From contig OMQS01000035.1 of NCBI GenBank assembly GCA_900313295.1, positions 1-12,709 of the forward strand: 12,709 nucleotides of DNA. Reading direction: 5' to 3'. This DNA is from an uncultured Eubacteriales bacterium (GTDB lineage: Bacteria > Bacillota > Clostridia > Oscillospirales > Oscillospiraceae). Made by a program: the position numbers and the translations under genes. Of this stretch, positions 1,465 through 12,709 are shown piece after piece. How positions within the stretch are numbered: position 1 is the first letter of the stretch; each line of letters begins with the position of its first letter. The notes beneath the pieces were generated by a model. The model was given only the letters and a program-made list of their open reading frames with translations, ran no database searches and was not told the origin of the DNA.

Positions 1465-1503
1465 ATGTCCATCAAAACAAATCGCCGCCAGACGGCAGAA
1501 AGG

Positions 1504-1558
1504 AGCCCCGATATGCGTACCGTTTCTCGTTCCAATTCCATCCTCTCCCGTCGGGGCT
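1504..1558 (+). promoter_or_regulatory. Long-range helix over the leader Shine-Dalgarno
   Basis: AGCCCCGA (1504-1511) is perfectly complementary to TCGGGGCT (1551-1558). This 8-bp, GC-rich helix takes up the last two bases of the leader's AAAGGAG and ends at the first base of the first Tyr codon. It could tune how often the leader is translated, or help synchronise the ribosome with polymerase. Confidence 0.45.
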
Positions 1559-1638
1559 ACTATTACGGCTTTATGGCTCGCTATTTTGCGGGTTATTTTT
1601 GCTGCAACAAATGCATAAAGCCGTCCGTATCACAATAG
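1513..1638 (+). CDS. Aromatic-residue-rich attenuator leader peptide, 41 aa
   Basis: A small ORF with a strong ribosome binding site (AAAGGAG at 1499-1505, 7-nt spacer) just downstream of a good promoter. Residues 15-29 read GYYYGFMARYFAGYF, with five Tyr and three Phe in 15 positions, followed by a Cys cluster (C30, C31, C34). There is no Trp. Such a run of cognate codons, followed by a terminator and then biosynthetic or transport genes, is the hallmark of leader peptides such as PheL. Here the ribosome would stall on codons 16-18 (1558-1566) when charged tRNA-Tyr is scarce, or on the Phe codons when Phe is scarce. The stop codon (1636-1638) lies inside the proposed antiterminator arm. The first ten residues are unremarkable, with no signal peptide. 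The peptide itself probably has no function beyond being translated. Confidence 0.82.
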   Translation: MRTVSRSNSILSRRGYYYGFMARYFAGYFCCNKCIKPSVSQ

Positions 1639-1662
1639 AGTTTCCGTTCTTTTCCCGTTAAG

Positions 1663-1702
1663 AAGAGGGCGCTCTGTTTCCGGACAGAGCGCCCTCTTTT
1701 TT
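1663..1702 (+). terminator. Attenuator terminator hairpin
   Basis: A 15-bp uninterrupted stem (1663-1677 with 1684-1698), loop TTCCGG, and T1697-T1702. It lies between the leader-peptide stop and the ribosome binding site of the substrate-binding protein, so it must be read through for the transporter to be made from the 1436 promoter. Confidence 0.93.
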
Positions 1703-1745
1703 ATACAAAAACAAAAAACAATACACAGCAAAGGAGAAAAACACC

Positions 1746-2807: not shown

Positions 2808-3728
2808 ATGGCTTTCCTGACTTCACTGCTCAATGCGCTGCCCGGTGCGGCGGCGCAGGGACTCATCTGGGGCATAATGGCCATCGGCGTCTACATCACC
2901 TTCCGCGTGCTGGACGTAGCCGATCTGACCGTGGACGGCTCCATCGCCACCGGCGGCGCCGTGGCCGTAATGCTGATCCGCGGCGGCATGAACTGCTGGC
3001 TGGCGCTGCTGTGTGCCTTCGCCTCCGGCCTGTTGGCTGGGCTCGTCACCGGCCTGTTCCATACCAAGTGCGGCATCCCCGCCATTCTGGCCGGCATTCT
3101 GACGCAGCTGGCTCTGTACTCCGTGAACCTGCGGATCATGGGCGGCAAGGCGAACCAGGCCGTAGGCGTGGATAAGTACCAGCTGGCCGTTTCCCAGCGC
3201 TATGTGCGGGAGCTGGCTCTGAATAATCCCCTGCCCCTGCTGCTCATCATCGTTGTGATCGTGGTCATCGCCCTGTACTGGTTCTTCGGCACGGAGCGTG
3301 GCTGTTCCGTCCGCGCCACCGGCGCCAACGCCAACATGGCTCGGGCGCAGGGCATCAACACCAACGCCAACATCGTGCTGGGGCTTATGCTCTCCAACGG
3401 TCTGGTGGCTCTGTCCGGCGGCCTGCTGGCGCAGTTCCAGGGCGCAGCCGACGTGGGCATGGGGCGCGGCGCCATCGTCATCGGTCTGGCAGCCGTCATC
3501 ATCAGTGAAGTGACCTTCGGCAAGATCTTCCGCAACTTCGGTCTGAAAATGTTTGCCGTGGCGCTGGGCGCCGTGATCTATTTCTTCGTGCTGCAGATCG
3601 TGCTGCAGCTTGGCCTGAACACCAACGATCTGAAGCTGATCTCCGCCCTGATCGTGGCCGTTTTCCTCTCCGTGCCCTACTGGAAGGGCAAGCTGATCCA
3701 TAAGAAAGGAGGCGTGCACCATGCTTGA
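2808..3728 (+). CDS. ABC transporter permease, TrpY-type
   Basis: Integral membrane subunit that forms the translocation path with the adjacent ATPase. It is 306 residues long, with about nine hydrophobic segments (near 17-33, 43-58, 63-84, 90-108, 142-160, 187-208, 220-236, 248-269, 276-290). The stretch DVADLTVDGSIATGGAVA at 36-53 is characteristic of this branch of the BPD_transp_2 permeases (PF02653). The loop RATGANANMARAQGIN at 169-184 is the likely coupling region that contacts the ATPase. The start ATG has GAGGAG with an 8-nt spacer. It follows the binding-protein gene by 87 bp and overlaps the ATPase gene by 8 bp, so the last two are probably translationally coupled. The substrate is inferred from the operon's regulation, not from this protein. 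Confidence 0.92.
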   Translation: MAFLTSLLNALPGAAAQGLIWGIMAIGVYITFRVLDVADLTVDGSIATGGAVAVMLIRGGMNCWLALLCAFASGLLAGLVTGLFHTKCGIPAILAGILTQLALYSVNLRIMGGKANQAVGVDKYQLAVSQRYVRELALNNPLPLLLIIVVIVVIALYWFFGTERGCSVRATGANANMARAQGINTNANIVLGLMLSNGLVALSGGLLAQFQGAADVGMGRGAIVIGLAAVIISEVTFGKIFRNFGLKMFAVALGAVIYFFVLQIVLQLGLNTNDLKLISALIVAVFLSVPYWKGKLIHKKGGVHHA

Positions 3729-4515
3729 GCTGCGGAATATTTCCAAGACCTTCTTCCCCGGCACCGTGCATGAAAAAACCGCGCTGGATAACCTGAGTCT
3801 GACCCTGCACGAGGGTGATTTTGTCACCGTCATCGGCGGCAACGGCGCCGGAAAATCCACCATGCTCAATGCCATTGCAGGCACCTTCACCGTGGACAGC
3901 GGCTCCATTCTCATTGACGGAATAGACGTGACCAGGCTGCCCGAATACAAGCGGGCGGCGCTGCTGGGTCGTGTGTTCCAGGATCCCATGATGGGCACCG
4001 CGCCCACCATGCAGATTCAGGAAAATCTGGCTCTGGCCGCCCGCAGAGGCCAGCATCGCGGTCTGAAATGGGGCATCACCCAGCAGGAGCAGCAGGAGTA
4101 TTTCCGGCGGCTCAAGGAACTGGATCTGGGTCTGGAGGACCGGATGAAGGCGAAGGTCGGCCTGCTCTCCGGCGGCCAGCGTCAGGCGCTGACGCTTCTG
4201 ATGGCGGCCATGCAGAAGCCCAAGCTCCTGCTTCTGGACGAGCATACCGCCGCTCTGGATCCCCGCACGGCCGCCAAGGTTCTGGAGCTGAGTGACCGGA
4301 TCGTGGAGGAAAATCATCTGACAACGCTGATGATCACCCACAACATGAAGGACGCCATTGCCCACGGCAACCGTCTCATCATGATGGATGCCGGCCACAT
4401 TGTGCTGGACATCTCCGGCGAGGAGAAAAAGAAGCTCACCGTCACCGACCTGCTCACCCTGTTCAGCAAGGCCAGCGGCACAGAGGCCAACGACGACAAA
4501 CTCCTCCTCTCTTAA
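3721..4515 (+). CDS. ABC transporter ATP-binding protein, TrpZ-type
   Basis: Cytoplasmic ATPase that powers the importer. It is 264 residues long with every core motif: Walker A GGNGAGKST at 39-47, Q-loop Q87, signature LSGGQ at 149-153, Walker B LLLLDE at 169-174 (E174 catalytic), D-loop AALD at 177-180, and switch His H207 in LMITHN. The start ATG has AAAGGAGG at 3705-3712 with an 8-nt spacer, inside the end of the permease gene. It is the last gene of the operon; a hairpin follows 34 nt after the stop. Confidence 0.95.
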   Translation: MLELRNISKTFFPGTVHEKTALDNLSLTLHEGDFVTVIGGNGAGKSTMLNAIAGTFTVDSGSILIDGIDVTRLPEYKRAALLGRVFQDPMMGTAPTMQIQENLALAARRGQHRGLKWGITQQEQQEYFRRLKELDLGLEDRMKAKVGLLSGGQRQALTLLMAAMQKPKLLLLDEHTAALDPRTAAKVLELSDRIVEENHLTTLMITHNMKDAIAHGNRLIMMDAGHIVLDISGEEKKKLTVTDLLTLFSKASGTEANDDKLLLS

Positions 4516-9991: not shown

Positions 9992-10645
9992 ATGACCCCT
10001 CTCCGGCTTTCGGCGCTGTTTCTGTTCCTGATGAACACCGCCGGCCTGCTGCTGCACTCCCAGCTCATCCCCCGCGGGCGCATACGGGCGGGGATGTTCT
10101 GCTTTTACACGAATCTCAGCAACCTCCTGCTCACGGTTTATGAGCTGCTGCTGTTCTGCGCCGGCTTTGCCCCCGACGGGCGGCTGTGGGCGGCGCTCAC
10201 CGACGTGCGGCTCTCCTGCGCCATGGCTCTGTGCATCTGGGTGACGCATTTAATCTATCAATTCGTTTTAGTGCCCTATGAAAAGCGGAAAGGGCTGAAA
10301 TTTGCGGATTTCGGCGGCAATTTCGGCAATATATGCGTGCATTATCTCACGCCGCTGCTGGCGGTGGCGCAGTGGCTGTTTCTGGCAGACAAAACGGGGC
10401 TTTCCCTGCTGTGCGCCGTGTGGTGGCTGGCGCTGCCCCTTCTGTACGCCGCCTTTTCCCTGCTGCGCGCCTCCGGCGGAAAGCCCATCGGCCACACGGG
10501 GCTGCTGTACCCCTATCCGTTTCTGGATCTGAAGCGGCTGGGCTGGGGCGGGCTGCTGCGCAACACCGCCGTACTGCTGGTTCTGTTTTTCCTGCTGGGC
10601 TGCGTGCTGGTGGGGCTTGGCGCTTTAATTGGTCAATCATTATAA
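9992..10645 (+). CDS. Pr6Pr family six-helix membrane protein
   Basis: An integral membrane protein of 217 residues with about six hydrophobic segments (near 6-22, 34-58, 73-94, 114-132, 137-158, 189-213). Family motifs are FYTNLSN at 38-44, HYLTPL at 117-122 and YPYPFLDL at 173-180, which I associate with the Pr6Pr family. Its function is unknown. The start ATG has AAGGAGG with a 7-nt spacer and lies 13 bp after the phosphoesterase stop, so the two are co-transcribed. A terminator follows 10 bp after the stop. Confidence 0.85.
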   Translation: MTPLRLSALFLFLMNTAGLLLHSQLIPRGRIRAGMFCFYTNLSNLLLTVYELLLFCAGFAPDGRLWAALTDVRLSCAMALCIWVTHLIYQFVLVPYEKRKGLKFADFGGNFGNICVHYLTPLLAVAQWLFLADKTGLSLLCAVWWLALPLLYAAFSLLRASGGKPIGHTGLLYPYPFLDLKRLGWGGLLRNTAVLLVLFFLLGCVLVGLGALIGQSL

Positions 10646-10655
10646 TTTTTATAAT

Positions 10656-10685
10656 AAAAAACGGGTACAGATGTACCCGTTTTTT
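10656..10685. terminator. Bidirectional intrinsic terminator
   Basis: A 13-bp stem AAAAAACGGGTAC / GTACCCGTTTTTT (10656-10668 with 10673-10685) and a 4-nt loop. A/T runs on both sides give a T-tract in either direction. It lies between the stops of the convergent membrane-protein and surface-protein genes. Confidence 0.95.
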
Positions 10686-10704
10686 ATGGTTTTTGGCTTA
10701 AAGA

Positions 10705-12709
10705 TCAGATCTTCTTTCTGCGGACGGCGGGAATCATAGCCAGACCCAGCAGGGCGGCCACGCTCAGGCCGGCATAGAGCATAACGCCCTTATCGCCGGT
10801 CTTGACGCCGCCGGTGGCGGGAATCGTCTTGCTGTCCAGCACATGGCCGCAGTTGTCGCAAATAAGCTCCTCCAGACCGTCCTTGGCAGCGGTGGCGGGA
10901 GTTGTGACCTTCCAGGTGCCCTTGTGGTCGATCTTATCCAGACCCTTCAGCGCTGCCTGCAGCTTGGCGTAGTTGCTGATGCGGCTGATGGCCACGGGGC
11001 TGAGATACCGCACGGCGTCCTCAGCAGCCTTGATGGTGCGGCAGTCGGTGGCGACGACGGCGTCAATGGCCTTCTCAGCGCTGTCCACATAGGCCAGGCT
11101 GTAGTCATCCTCGAAGTACAGGCAGAGCTTGGCGCCGTCCGTCAGGGCAGTAGCGTCCACGGTGGTCATGGGCATGGTGCCGTTCACGGAGAACATCCAA
11201 CCGCAGTAACTCTTGCCGTCGGAAGCCTTGTTGGAGCTGTCGGTGAGGGCAACGCCGGCGGCAGAAGTGACAGAATTGATATACTTTCCGCCGTAGCTGC
11301 TGTCCATGACGCCCAACTTGATGCCCTGGGCGGAGCAGGCCTTGACCAGCGCGTCCAGCACGGTGGCGCCCTTATCCAGGGTAACGGTCAAATCGGTGAC
11401 CCAGGGGGTCAGATTGCCGGCAGCCAGCGTGTGGCACCGGTCTGCCGTCAGCTCGTGAAGGGTATCACCCAGCACGGAAACGGAAACGGTAACGGTGTCC
11501 ACCTCAGAGGGAGCGGTGCCGCCCGTTACGATATTCACACCGAACACCAGAGAATAGCCGTTATAGCTGATGGTGCAAAGCTGGTAGCCCGTCTTGGTCA
11601 GATCCAGTCCGGTAAGAGCGCAGTCCTTAACCATTATCTCCTCCGTGGAAGCATCGGAATAAGTAACCGTGACTTTTTTGCTCAGAATGGTCTGCAAGGC
11701 ACCTCCCTGCTTGATCTTGGAAGCGGTCATGGTATTCAGATCAGGGCAGGAGAGGCGAACAACGCGCTTTTCGCCGGAGAGAACAGGGGCGGACTCGCCC
11801 TGCTTCCAAGGGCTGCTGATGACGGCGGCGTTGAGCTTGGAAACGAGGGATCCGTTGGTCAGCTCGTCCGCAGTAAAGGCGGCCGTCAGCTTTTCGGCGT
11901 CGGCGCCCAGCGGATCATCTACGCGCTTATACTCATCGCTCTTGGTTTCCACATTGACTTCATTCACGGAGCCGATCCCCTTGTCGGCAGAACCGTTCAG
12001 GTAATAGTTATTTGCGATCACATTGTAGCGATCCAGAGAGTTCATGTAGCCGATGATACCGCCCTTGACGCCGTCTTTGTCCGTAGCGGTGATGGTGCCG
12101 GTGGAGTAATTGCCGCGGATGTAGCCGATGCCGTTGTTCCAGCACTGCTTCAGCAGCTCCTCGCCGCCGAAGATGCCGCCCACATTGGTGGCGCCGGTGA
12201 CCTTACCGGTGAAAACGCAGGCCTCCACGGTGGTGGCGGGGGTGTTGGGTGCGGAAACGGCGGAATAGCCGCCGCCCACGATGCCGCCGGCGAACTTGCC
12301 GCTGGCGTACACTTCGCCGGTGAAGGAACAGTTGCGGGTGATGCAGTCTCCCATGGACTGACCCTTGAAGCCCGTGATGCCGCCCACATAGTTGCGGCCA
12401 TAGACCTTGGCGGCGCTGGTGCAGTTTTCAATGGTGCCGTTGACGCAGCCGCCGAAAGAGCCGATCATGTCGTTCATCTTCAGGCCGGTGGGGCCCCAGG
12501 GATAGTTGAAATCGCCCTTCAGCTCCTCCGCCCACTCGGGATAGGTGCCGTCATCGCCGATGACAACGCCCGCTTCCACGGTGCTGTTGCGAATGATGAC
12601 CACGTCCACGCCGGAGGCATAGCCGCCGATGAATCCGGAATACTTGGTGTGGGTGCCGGATTTCAGGGTCACATTGTCGATCTCCACCTTCACGGGGTTA
12701 GCGCGATCC
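10705..12709 (-). CDS. Large cell-surface protein, C-terminal part: GLUG-like repeats, DUF4430-like domain, membrane anchor
   Basis: The frame is open through the right edge, so the true start and N-terminus are missing; about 667 residues are visible. From the N-side: four to five degenerate Gly-rich repeats (about 12060-12709) of the form ..C.FTGKV.G..NVGGI.G, resembling GLUG motifs and probably a beta-solenoid; a Big-like segment (about 11520-11760, KKVTVTYSDASTEEIMV); a DUF4430-like domain (about 11075-11505, with TVLDALVKACSAQGI and GWMFSVNGTMP); and a terminal module with CDNCG (about 10845-10860). The end has IPATGG and VKTGD, a hydrophobic helix (VMLYAGLSVAALLGLAMIPAV) and RRKK, the layout of a sortase or membrane-anchored wall protein. 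A GTG at 12693-12691 is in frame but has no ribosome binding site. The role is likely adhesion or binding of host or food glycans or proteins, which is inference. Confidence 0.87.
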   Translation of the reverse strand, partial: DRANPVKVEIDNVTLKSGTHTKYSGFIGGYASGVDVVIIRNSTVEAGVVIGDDGTYPEWAEELKGDFNYPWGPTGLKMNDMIGSFGGCVNGTIENCTSAAKVYGRNYVGGITGFKGQSMGDCITRNCSFTGEVYASGKFAGGIVGGGYSAVSAPNTPATTVEACVFTGKVTGATNVGGIFGGEELLKQCWNNGIGYIRGNYSTGTITATDKDGVKGGIIGYMNSLDRYNVIANNYYLNGSADKGIGSVNEVNVETKSDEYKRVDDPLGADAEKLTAAFTADELTNGSLVSKLNAAVISSPWKQGESAPVLSGEKRVVRLSCPDLNTMTASKIKQGGALQTILSKKVTVTYSDASTEEIMVKDCALTGLDLTKTGYQLCTISYNGYSLVFGVNIVTGGTAPSEVDTVTVSVSVLGDTLHELTADRCHTLAAGNLTPWVTDLTVTLDKGATVLDALVKACSAQGIKLGVMDSSYGGKYINSVTSAAGVALTDSSNKASDGKSYCGWMFSVNGTMPMTTVDATALTDGAKLCLYFEDDYSLAYVDSAEKAIDAVVATDCRTIKAAEDAVRYLSPVAISRISNYAKLQAALKGLDKIDHKGTWKVTTPATAAKDGLEELICDNCGHVLDSKTIPATGGVKTGDKGVMLYAGLSVAALLGLAMIPAVRRKKI

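Follow-up and report, generated by a model that had tools for sequence, protein, structure and literature searches.

A probable tyrosine/phenylalanine leader-peptide attenuator in front of a predicted tyrosine ABC importer in Oscillospiraceae

The window, i.e., the whole analyzed stretch of 12,709 nucleotides from an uncultured Eubacteriales bacterium, carries on its forward strand a three-gene ABC importer of the CD0873 type, as an earlier note on this DNA had described; it is composed of a substrate-binding lipoprotein (1746-2720, PF04392), a permease (2808-3728, PF02653) and an ATPase (3721-4515, PF00005). The region in front of the importer, on the same strand, begins with a sigma-70-type promoter at 1436-1464 (-35 TTGACT at 1436-1441, 17-nt spacer, -10 TATAGT at 1459-1464; 10 of 12 matches), the only one in 1200-1900 compared with a mean of 0.5 in shuffles, and the promoters of relatives look alike by eye. 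An operator-like palindrome without strand assignment, CTTTA-N6-TAAAG (1440-1455), lies over this promoter and matches the published TTTA-N6-TAAA consensus of HisR, a TrpR-family regulator. The Shine-Dalgarno sequence AAAGGAG (1499-1505) precedes a leader ORF at 1513-1638, which runs from ATG 1513 to TAG 1636-1638 and comprises 41 codons plus stop, MRTVSRSNSILSRRGYYYGFMARYFAGYFCCNKCIKPSVSQ. An intrinsic terminator with a T-tract occupies 1660-1702, 43 bases upstream of the lipoprotein ATG.

Codons 16-29 of the leader ORF (1558-1599, forward strand) contain five Tyr and three Phe codons (Y16, Y17, Y18, F20, Y24, F25, Y28, F29), the totals for the whole ORF being Tyr 5, Phe 3 and Trp 0, and the promoter, strong ribosome binding site and codon content given in the earlier note were confirmed. 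An equally aromatic-rich, Shine-Dalgarno-led ORF appeared in 0 of 100 dinucleotide shuffles of the 450-nt upstream region, and in 1 of 200 under a looser Shine-Dalgarno rule. Within this run, a small forward-strand hairpin, GCTCGC-TATTTT-GCGGGT (1576-1593), holds one Tyr and one Phe codon in its loop and codes for ARYFAG.

Folding of 1471-1702 yielded a structure more stable than expected (z = -5.41; none of 200 shuffles equally stable), with a terminator hairpin of -32.9 kcal/mol followed by the T-tract. The 15-bp terminator described earlier is present; its stem, however, folds as up to 19 pairs with the A/T flank. The helices proposed at 1565-1575/1614-1624, 1623-1627/1681-1685 and 1634-1641/1671-1678 are all able to form. 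The first is the 1:2 helix (1565-1624, forward strand), and the other two belong to a forward-strand antiterminator at 1623-1685 that combines 1623-1627/1681-1685 and 1634-1640/1672-1678 with an additional third helix, 1645-1654/1662-1671, and that crosses the leader stop codon, in agreement with the earlier reading. Terminator and antiterminator are mutually exclusive folds. Antiterminator and 1:2 helix do overlap, at the two bases 1623-1624, but calling them incompatible overstated the case.

The dependence of this choice on ribosome position was modeled with the transcript cut just before the terminator 3' arm and the ribosome-covered bases blocked. In the window, pairing of the terminator 5' arm with the antiterminator stood at 0.92 for all ribosome positions up to codon 36 and dropped to 0.61 once the ribosome was at codon 38 and to 0.05 once it was at codon 41; the antiterminator is retained in silico with the ribosome at each Tyr/Phe codon and lost at the last codons. 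It also forms in the shortened transcript without a ribosome, and the full-length transcript without a ribosome folds with the terminator. In classical trp attenuation, an untranslated leader leads to termination, a behavior that need not apply to every attenuator. The outermost antiterminator helix scored 0.79 without a ribosome versus 0.86 to 0.99 with one at a Tyr/Phe codon, and this small difference is the size of the 1:2 helix effect in the model. The decisive event in the model would be the arrival of the ribosome at the last codons, where it covers the antiterminator, the 1:2 helix being minor.

To analyze recurrence, 32 genomes of the genus were searched, giving 14 orthologous binding-protein genes (L009-L022, L022 being a fragment) and six paralogs of about 30% identity (L023-L028). 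A leader was called when at least 5 Tyr plus Phe fell within 12 residues and no more than 10 out of 200 shuffles equaled it, with expected false leaders of up to about 5% before the terminator requirement. Leader and terminator were called in 10 of the 14 orthologs (L009-L011, L014, L016-L020, L022), and no Tyr/Phe leader was found in the other four (L012, L013, L015, L021); the aromatic leader ORF, whose absence from homologous operons the earlier note had named as counting against its reading, is kept in most orthologs of the genus. The analysis was extended to named contigs, where the best 80 of at least 576 confirmed loci comprised 19 with leader and terminator, 2 with a leader and no terminator found, 55 without a leader and 4 too short. 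A family search covered 300 genomes, of which 146 matched at E 1e-60 or better among the matches listed, and contributed 27 new loci and 80 further stretches; the latter come from matches listed down to about E = 1e-109, weaker ones and a few at contig ends being omitted. Two of these 107 loci were excluded, L157 because its start lies within a tandem gene and L204 for want of a start, and the remaining 105 divided into 26 with leader and terminator, 8 with a leader only, 69 with none and 2 too short. The named and family sets share species, and their counts are not independent; six upstream regions shorter than 250 nt were left out.

The caller is strict, and some loci scored as lacking a leader show a recognizable R-[YF]-A-G leader. 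By eye, L129, L142, L149, L161, L195, L206 and L222 are probable true leaders scored negative, and L136, L156 and L089 are examples of probable false calls. Profile A3 was used to look for other operons under this leader. Of the 32 genus genomes, 7 gave a single clear match apiece, always at this importer, and four more gave weak matches only (E 0.38 or worse); the profile fails to recover the diverged leaders known in G001, G003 and G010, so diverged leaders may exist elsewhere. In three loci (L131, L134, L053), the leader is very short and contains Phe and YYYYY runs, the caller found no terminator, and control there might be exerted at the level of translation. One Tyr/Phe leader (L052) lies on a contig labelled Spirochaetaceae, a metagenome bin, which may reflect transfer or misbinning.

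Ribosome masking was applied to 30 leaders, i.e., a set of 31 less L053, which has no proper terminator; the set includes L041, L045, L082 and L106, all scored negative by the caller. Subtracting the value for a ribosome at the stop codon from that for a stall in mid-run gave 0.53 on average, versus 0.18 in shuffles, and in 27 of 30 leaders the result lay above the mean of the leader's own shuffles. In 20 leaders, no more than 5 of 100 shuffles were as high, in the other 10 more than 5 of 100 were, and L010 (a close relative), L014 and L019 did not exceed their own shuffle means. Folding with and without ribosome-covered segments, the check that the earlier note had proposed, thus separates stall from stop in the window and in most of the leaders folded.

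Covariation was assessed in alignment A2 of 13 more distant relatives, from which L059 had been dropped as a near copy of L057, and it revealed compensatory changes in both alternative structures. In the terminator stem, 95.6% of cells are paired and 12 changed on both sides, a number reached by 0 of 500 shuffles, with further pair types unexceptional (reached by 140 of 500). The A2 antiterminator, formed by the last leader codons with the terminator loop and 3' arm, is 88.9% paired (6 of 500) and shows two-sided changes in four cells (13 of 500); its covariation score (4 of 500) stands well above all slid versions, and its pairs changed on both sides and further pair types were reached by 41 and 446 of 500 shuffles, respectively. 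Terminator and antiterminator share a strand and their covariation signals are not independent; the alignment supports the predicted terminator strongly and the predicted antiterminator moderately. RNAalifold on A2 predicted the terminator and another small helix, and not the antiterminator. For L010 and L011, the close relatives of the window, similarity is too high for this test; their 1:2 helix arms are nearly identical to those of the window, and by eye the two share one compensated terminator change.

The composition of the 55 called leaders bears on what the switch may read. Their densest 12 residues hold 148 Tyr, 212 Phe and 1 Trp, an excess that reflects selection, as these windows were picked for Tyr plus Phe; Trp occurs anywhere in the leader in 5 of 55, and 7 of 55 are Phe-only in the densest 12 residues. 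Tyr and Phe swap freely at the same positions between close relatives, leader lengths differ in whole codons, and the peptide outside the aromatic run varies between groups by eye. Because the leaders mix Tyr and Phe, the signal is read from their codons as "Tyr and/or Phe". The earlier expectation that regulation alone would predict the transported substrate was not borne out, given this mixed signal and the Phe-only leaders.

The predicted substrate follows mainly from the binding-site residues. In the accessible text of PMC6816091, CD0873 of C. difficile is described as binding Tyr through Glu263, with Tyr279 excluding Trp. The lipoprotein is related to CD0873 (profile E-value 3.3e-63), and its Glu250 and Tyr266 align with these two residues, as is characteristic of CD0873-type proteins. 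Of 121 loci, 98 yielded an orthologous protein, and every one of these 98 has Glu and Tyr at the two selectivity positions (a tally without L022 and most of L120-L146, for which no full protein was extracted), and all six paralogs have Ala and Tyr, Ala replacing the Tyr-binding Glu. The match to the TrpX equivalog NF041285 (247.2 bits) falls under the curated cut-off of 390. Tyrosine is the most likely substrate on these residues. The Tyr-specific look of the binding site contrasts with the free exchange of Tyr and Phe in the leaders and with the Phe-only leaders, which counts against the attenuator reading.

The paralogs also differ in regulation. A T-box motif precedes all six, with Rfam scores over the cut-off in four of five tested and a specifier that reads UGG (Trp) by our reading of the alignments, and ahead of tyrS in this genome (TIGR00234, 396.6 bits vs. 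113.8) lies a T-box (L002) whose specifier position reads UAC. Such T-boxes would favor control of the operon by a T-box or other known riboswitch, with the aromatic ORF incidental, but the T-box motif was found in 0 of 193 ortholog upstream regions. Rfam searches near 1436-1745 gave no plus-strand match even at E up to 5, and two minus-strand matches (E 1.2 and 4), far below gathering scores, lie on the terminator hairpin; no Rfam family reached its gathering score in 20 related loci either. Control by a known riboswitch, which the earlier note had listed as grounds against its reading, can hardly be the explanation here. As T-boxes precede the paralogs and tyrS and none was found on this importer, the genus appears, as far as seen, to use them elsewhere. 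If the attenuator reading is true, one genus splits the job, with T-boxes for tyrS and the Trp-type paralogous importer and a translated leader for the Tyr-type importer.

The small hairpin at the control codons recurs as well. The motif X-R-[YF and similar](1-3)-A-G is encoded in 22 distinct rows, which exceeds what a plain codon run needs and could suggest that the nascent peptide itself is the sensor, stalling the ribosome on free Tyr/Phe or another small molecule and not via uncharged tRNA. The TnaC leader peptide stalls in this manner in response to Trp. The recurrence nevertheless has its explanation in the RNA: all 22 rows encode the Ala of the motif by GCG, a codon that makes up 16% of Ala codons in a small background set (five binding-protein genes), and all six hairpin pairs form in 17 of 22 rows. 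The constraint on the motif thus looks to be on the RNA, with the Tyr/Phe codons in the loop. In L018, which lay outside the motif search, TGC can pair with GCA by eye. No R-[YF]-A-G motif was seen by eye in the leaders of the A2 group, which show aromatic runs only, and this further argues against a peptide sensor, which we regard as unlikely. A translating ribosome would open this putative pause hairpin.

A second layer of control may act at the promoter. The accessible text of PMC9413887 gives the Firmicutes HisR consensus as cacTTTAnnnnnnTAAAgtg, which the box matches, and names the YerC family HisR. TrpR-family genes (PF01371) occur in 30 of 32 genus genomes, and the copy in this genome is YerC-type (TIGR02531, 115.4 bits vs. 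a cut-off of 42.2); the assembly thus combines TTTA-N6-TAAA in the promoter with a YerC-family gene, the two marks of a HisR/YerC regulon. This assembly, which is 77% complete, contains no exact copy of CTTTA-N6-TAAAG apart from the one at 1440-1455. In a relaxed form, the box is present in 39 of 193 ortholog upstream regions (mean 1.4 and maximum 5 in 50 shuffle rounds) and overlaps a -35 in 28 of these 39. It is equally frequent without a leader (26 of 128) as with leader and terminator (12 of 55), and is found, e.g., at the four genus orthologs without a called leader (L012, L013, L015, L021). Genome-wide, the promoter motif is not enriched, with 1, 4 and 3 sites in G000, G002 and G025 compared with 4, 6 and 2 in the reversed control, and the five non-importer sites have no common function by eye. 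A TrpR-family repressor, of the HisR/YerC type as suggested by the box and gene family, probably adds a second layer at the promoter. Box frequency independent of the leader would also suit regulation at the promoter only, in which the terminator would do no more than lower expression and the ORF would encode a functional micro-protein. Against this stand the joint recurrence of aromatic runs, antiterminator and terminator and the divergence of the peptide outside the run, which make a promoter-only arrangement very unlikely.

The aromatic amino acid physiology of the genus was examined with profile searches. Prephenate dehydratase (PF00800) was detected in none of the 10 leader genomes, one of which is 100% complete, in 2 of 4 genomes with an ortholog and no leader and in 6 of 18 without an ortholog; the control search was positive in 14 of 14 known genomes. 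The absence of the enzyme goes with the presence of the leader in a pattern that is suggestive only, given the relatedness of the species and the 77-84% completeness of three leader genomes. Among the 10 leader genomes, only G010, with 2 Tyr and 4 Phe in its leader, has prephenate dehydrogenase (PF02153) above the cut-off, and G001 has a match below it. Across the genus genomes (G000-G031), both enzymes are patchy within one genus. Judged by gene content, the leader-bearing bacteria of the genus probably cannot make Phe by this route and in most cases cannot make Tyr by it, in keeping with a switch that reads both.

Taken as a whole, the locus has the organization of an attenuator: a Shine-Dalgarno-led ORF with a run of control codons lies between promoter and operon, an intrinsic terminator precedes the first gene, the antiterminator excludes the terminator in the fold, and the choice of fold tracks ribosome position in silico. 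The leader-peptide interpretation of the earlier note is supported by leader recurrence, ribosome-mask folding and covariation in relatives, and we consider it very probable that this is a ribosome-mediated transcription attenuator sensing the charging of tRNA-Tyr and/or tRNA-Phe and controlling an aromatic amino acid importer, most likely for tyrosine. With Tyr and Phe plentiful, the ribosome would pass the Tyr/Phe codons to the stop at 1636-1638 and cover the antiterminator 5' strands (1623-1654), and the terminator at 1660-1702 would form. With charged tRNA-Tyr or tRNA-Phe scarce, the ribosome would stall within codons 16-29, the antiterminator would form before the terminator 3' arm is made, and RNA polymerase would read through into the importer genes. 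The TrpR-family repressor at the promoter would probably constitute the second layer of this scheme.

The class of attenuator is classical, and its own features here are the conserved loop hairpin and the mixed Tyr/Phe reading. In the trp and pheA/pheL systems of E. coli, a control-codon leader peptide likewise governs alternative antiterminator and terminator folds, and in the trp operon TrpR acts at an operator over the promoter in addition to the trpL attenuator. In contrast to these systems, the present element belongs to a Firmicute, has mixed Tyr and Phe codons, precedes an importer and not a biosynthetic operon, and places its antiterminator across the leader stop codon. More tentatively, and with rather less than even confidence, we hypothesize a trp-operon-like double control, TrpR-family repressor plus attenuation, for uptake and not synthesis in aromatic-auxotrophic Firmicutes, in which one leader integrates Tyr and Phe via the codons in the conserved hairpin loop, perhaps with read-through if the leader is untranslated.

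Ribosome-stalling attenuators are not as unusual in Clostridia as the earlier note had supposed: candidate His leader-peptide attenuators in Firmicutes, including Peptostreptococcaceae, appear in the accessible text of PMC9413887, and they share the Gram-positive leader-peptide type and differ in their His codons, his biosynthesis operons and taxa. The uORFC-13-1 element, known from 24 sequences of Acholeplasma and environmental DNA, resembles the present one, as far as the accessible part of PMC8632094 describes it, in that a uORF containing one or more Phe codons precedes a terminator in front of a gene for aromatic amino acids, and differs in that this gene is aroF. The Streptococcus suis trpXYZ operon encodes a related ABC importer whose uptake is also under tRNA-charging control, there through a Trp T-box riboswitch with a UGG specifier (PMC9382623, accessible text). 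The C. difficile tyrosine importer shares a related binding protein with the same Glu and Tyr selectivity residues, and its regulation is not described in the accessible part of PMC6816091. In the open papers searched on Tyr/Phe leader peptides, tyrosine-transporter leaders and Firmicutes/Ruminococcaceae attenuators, the element was not found. If the attenuator reading holds, it would represent a recurrent, apparently undescribed Tyr/Phe attenuator family in Firmicutes, where T-boxes are the expected control, tie an importer class linked to gut tyrosine metabolism to a testable regulatory signal, and provide a natural example of a single leader that may respond to two amino acids.

Several further elements of the window were recorded. 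A hairpin that would sequester the leader Shine-Dalgarno sequence (1503-1511/1551-1558) was considered and is not claimed, scoring 0.69 in the window versus 0.76 in shuffles and 0.64 versus 0.52 across 45 leaders. Directly upstream of the importer unit lies a ModE-like winged-helix gene (914-1258, under the NCBIfam cut-off); it was rejected as a cognate regulator since, among the loci compared, it adjoins the importer only in L009, L010, L011 and same-place loci and is thus not part of the recurring unit. On the minus strand, 10705-12708 encodes a large protein with a DUF4430 domain and Gly-rich repeats, whose C-terminal hydrophobic stretch and basic tail look surface-anchor-like by eye. A strong hairpin with A/T flanks at 10643-10689, for which the Rfam match is sub-threshold only, lies between converging genes and is likely their shared terminator.
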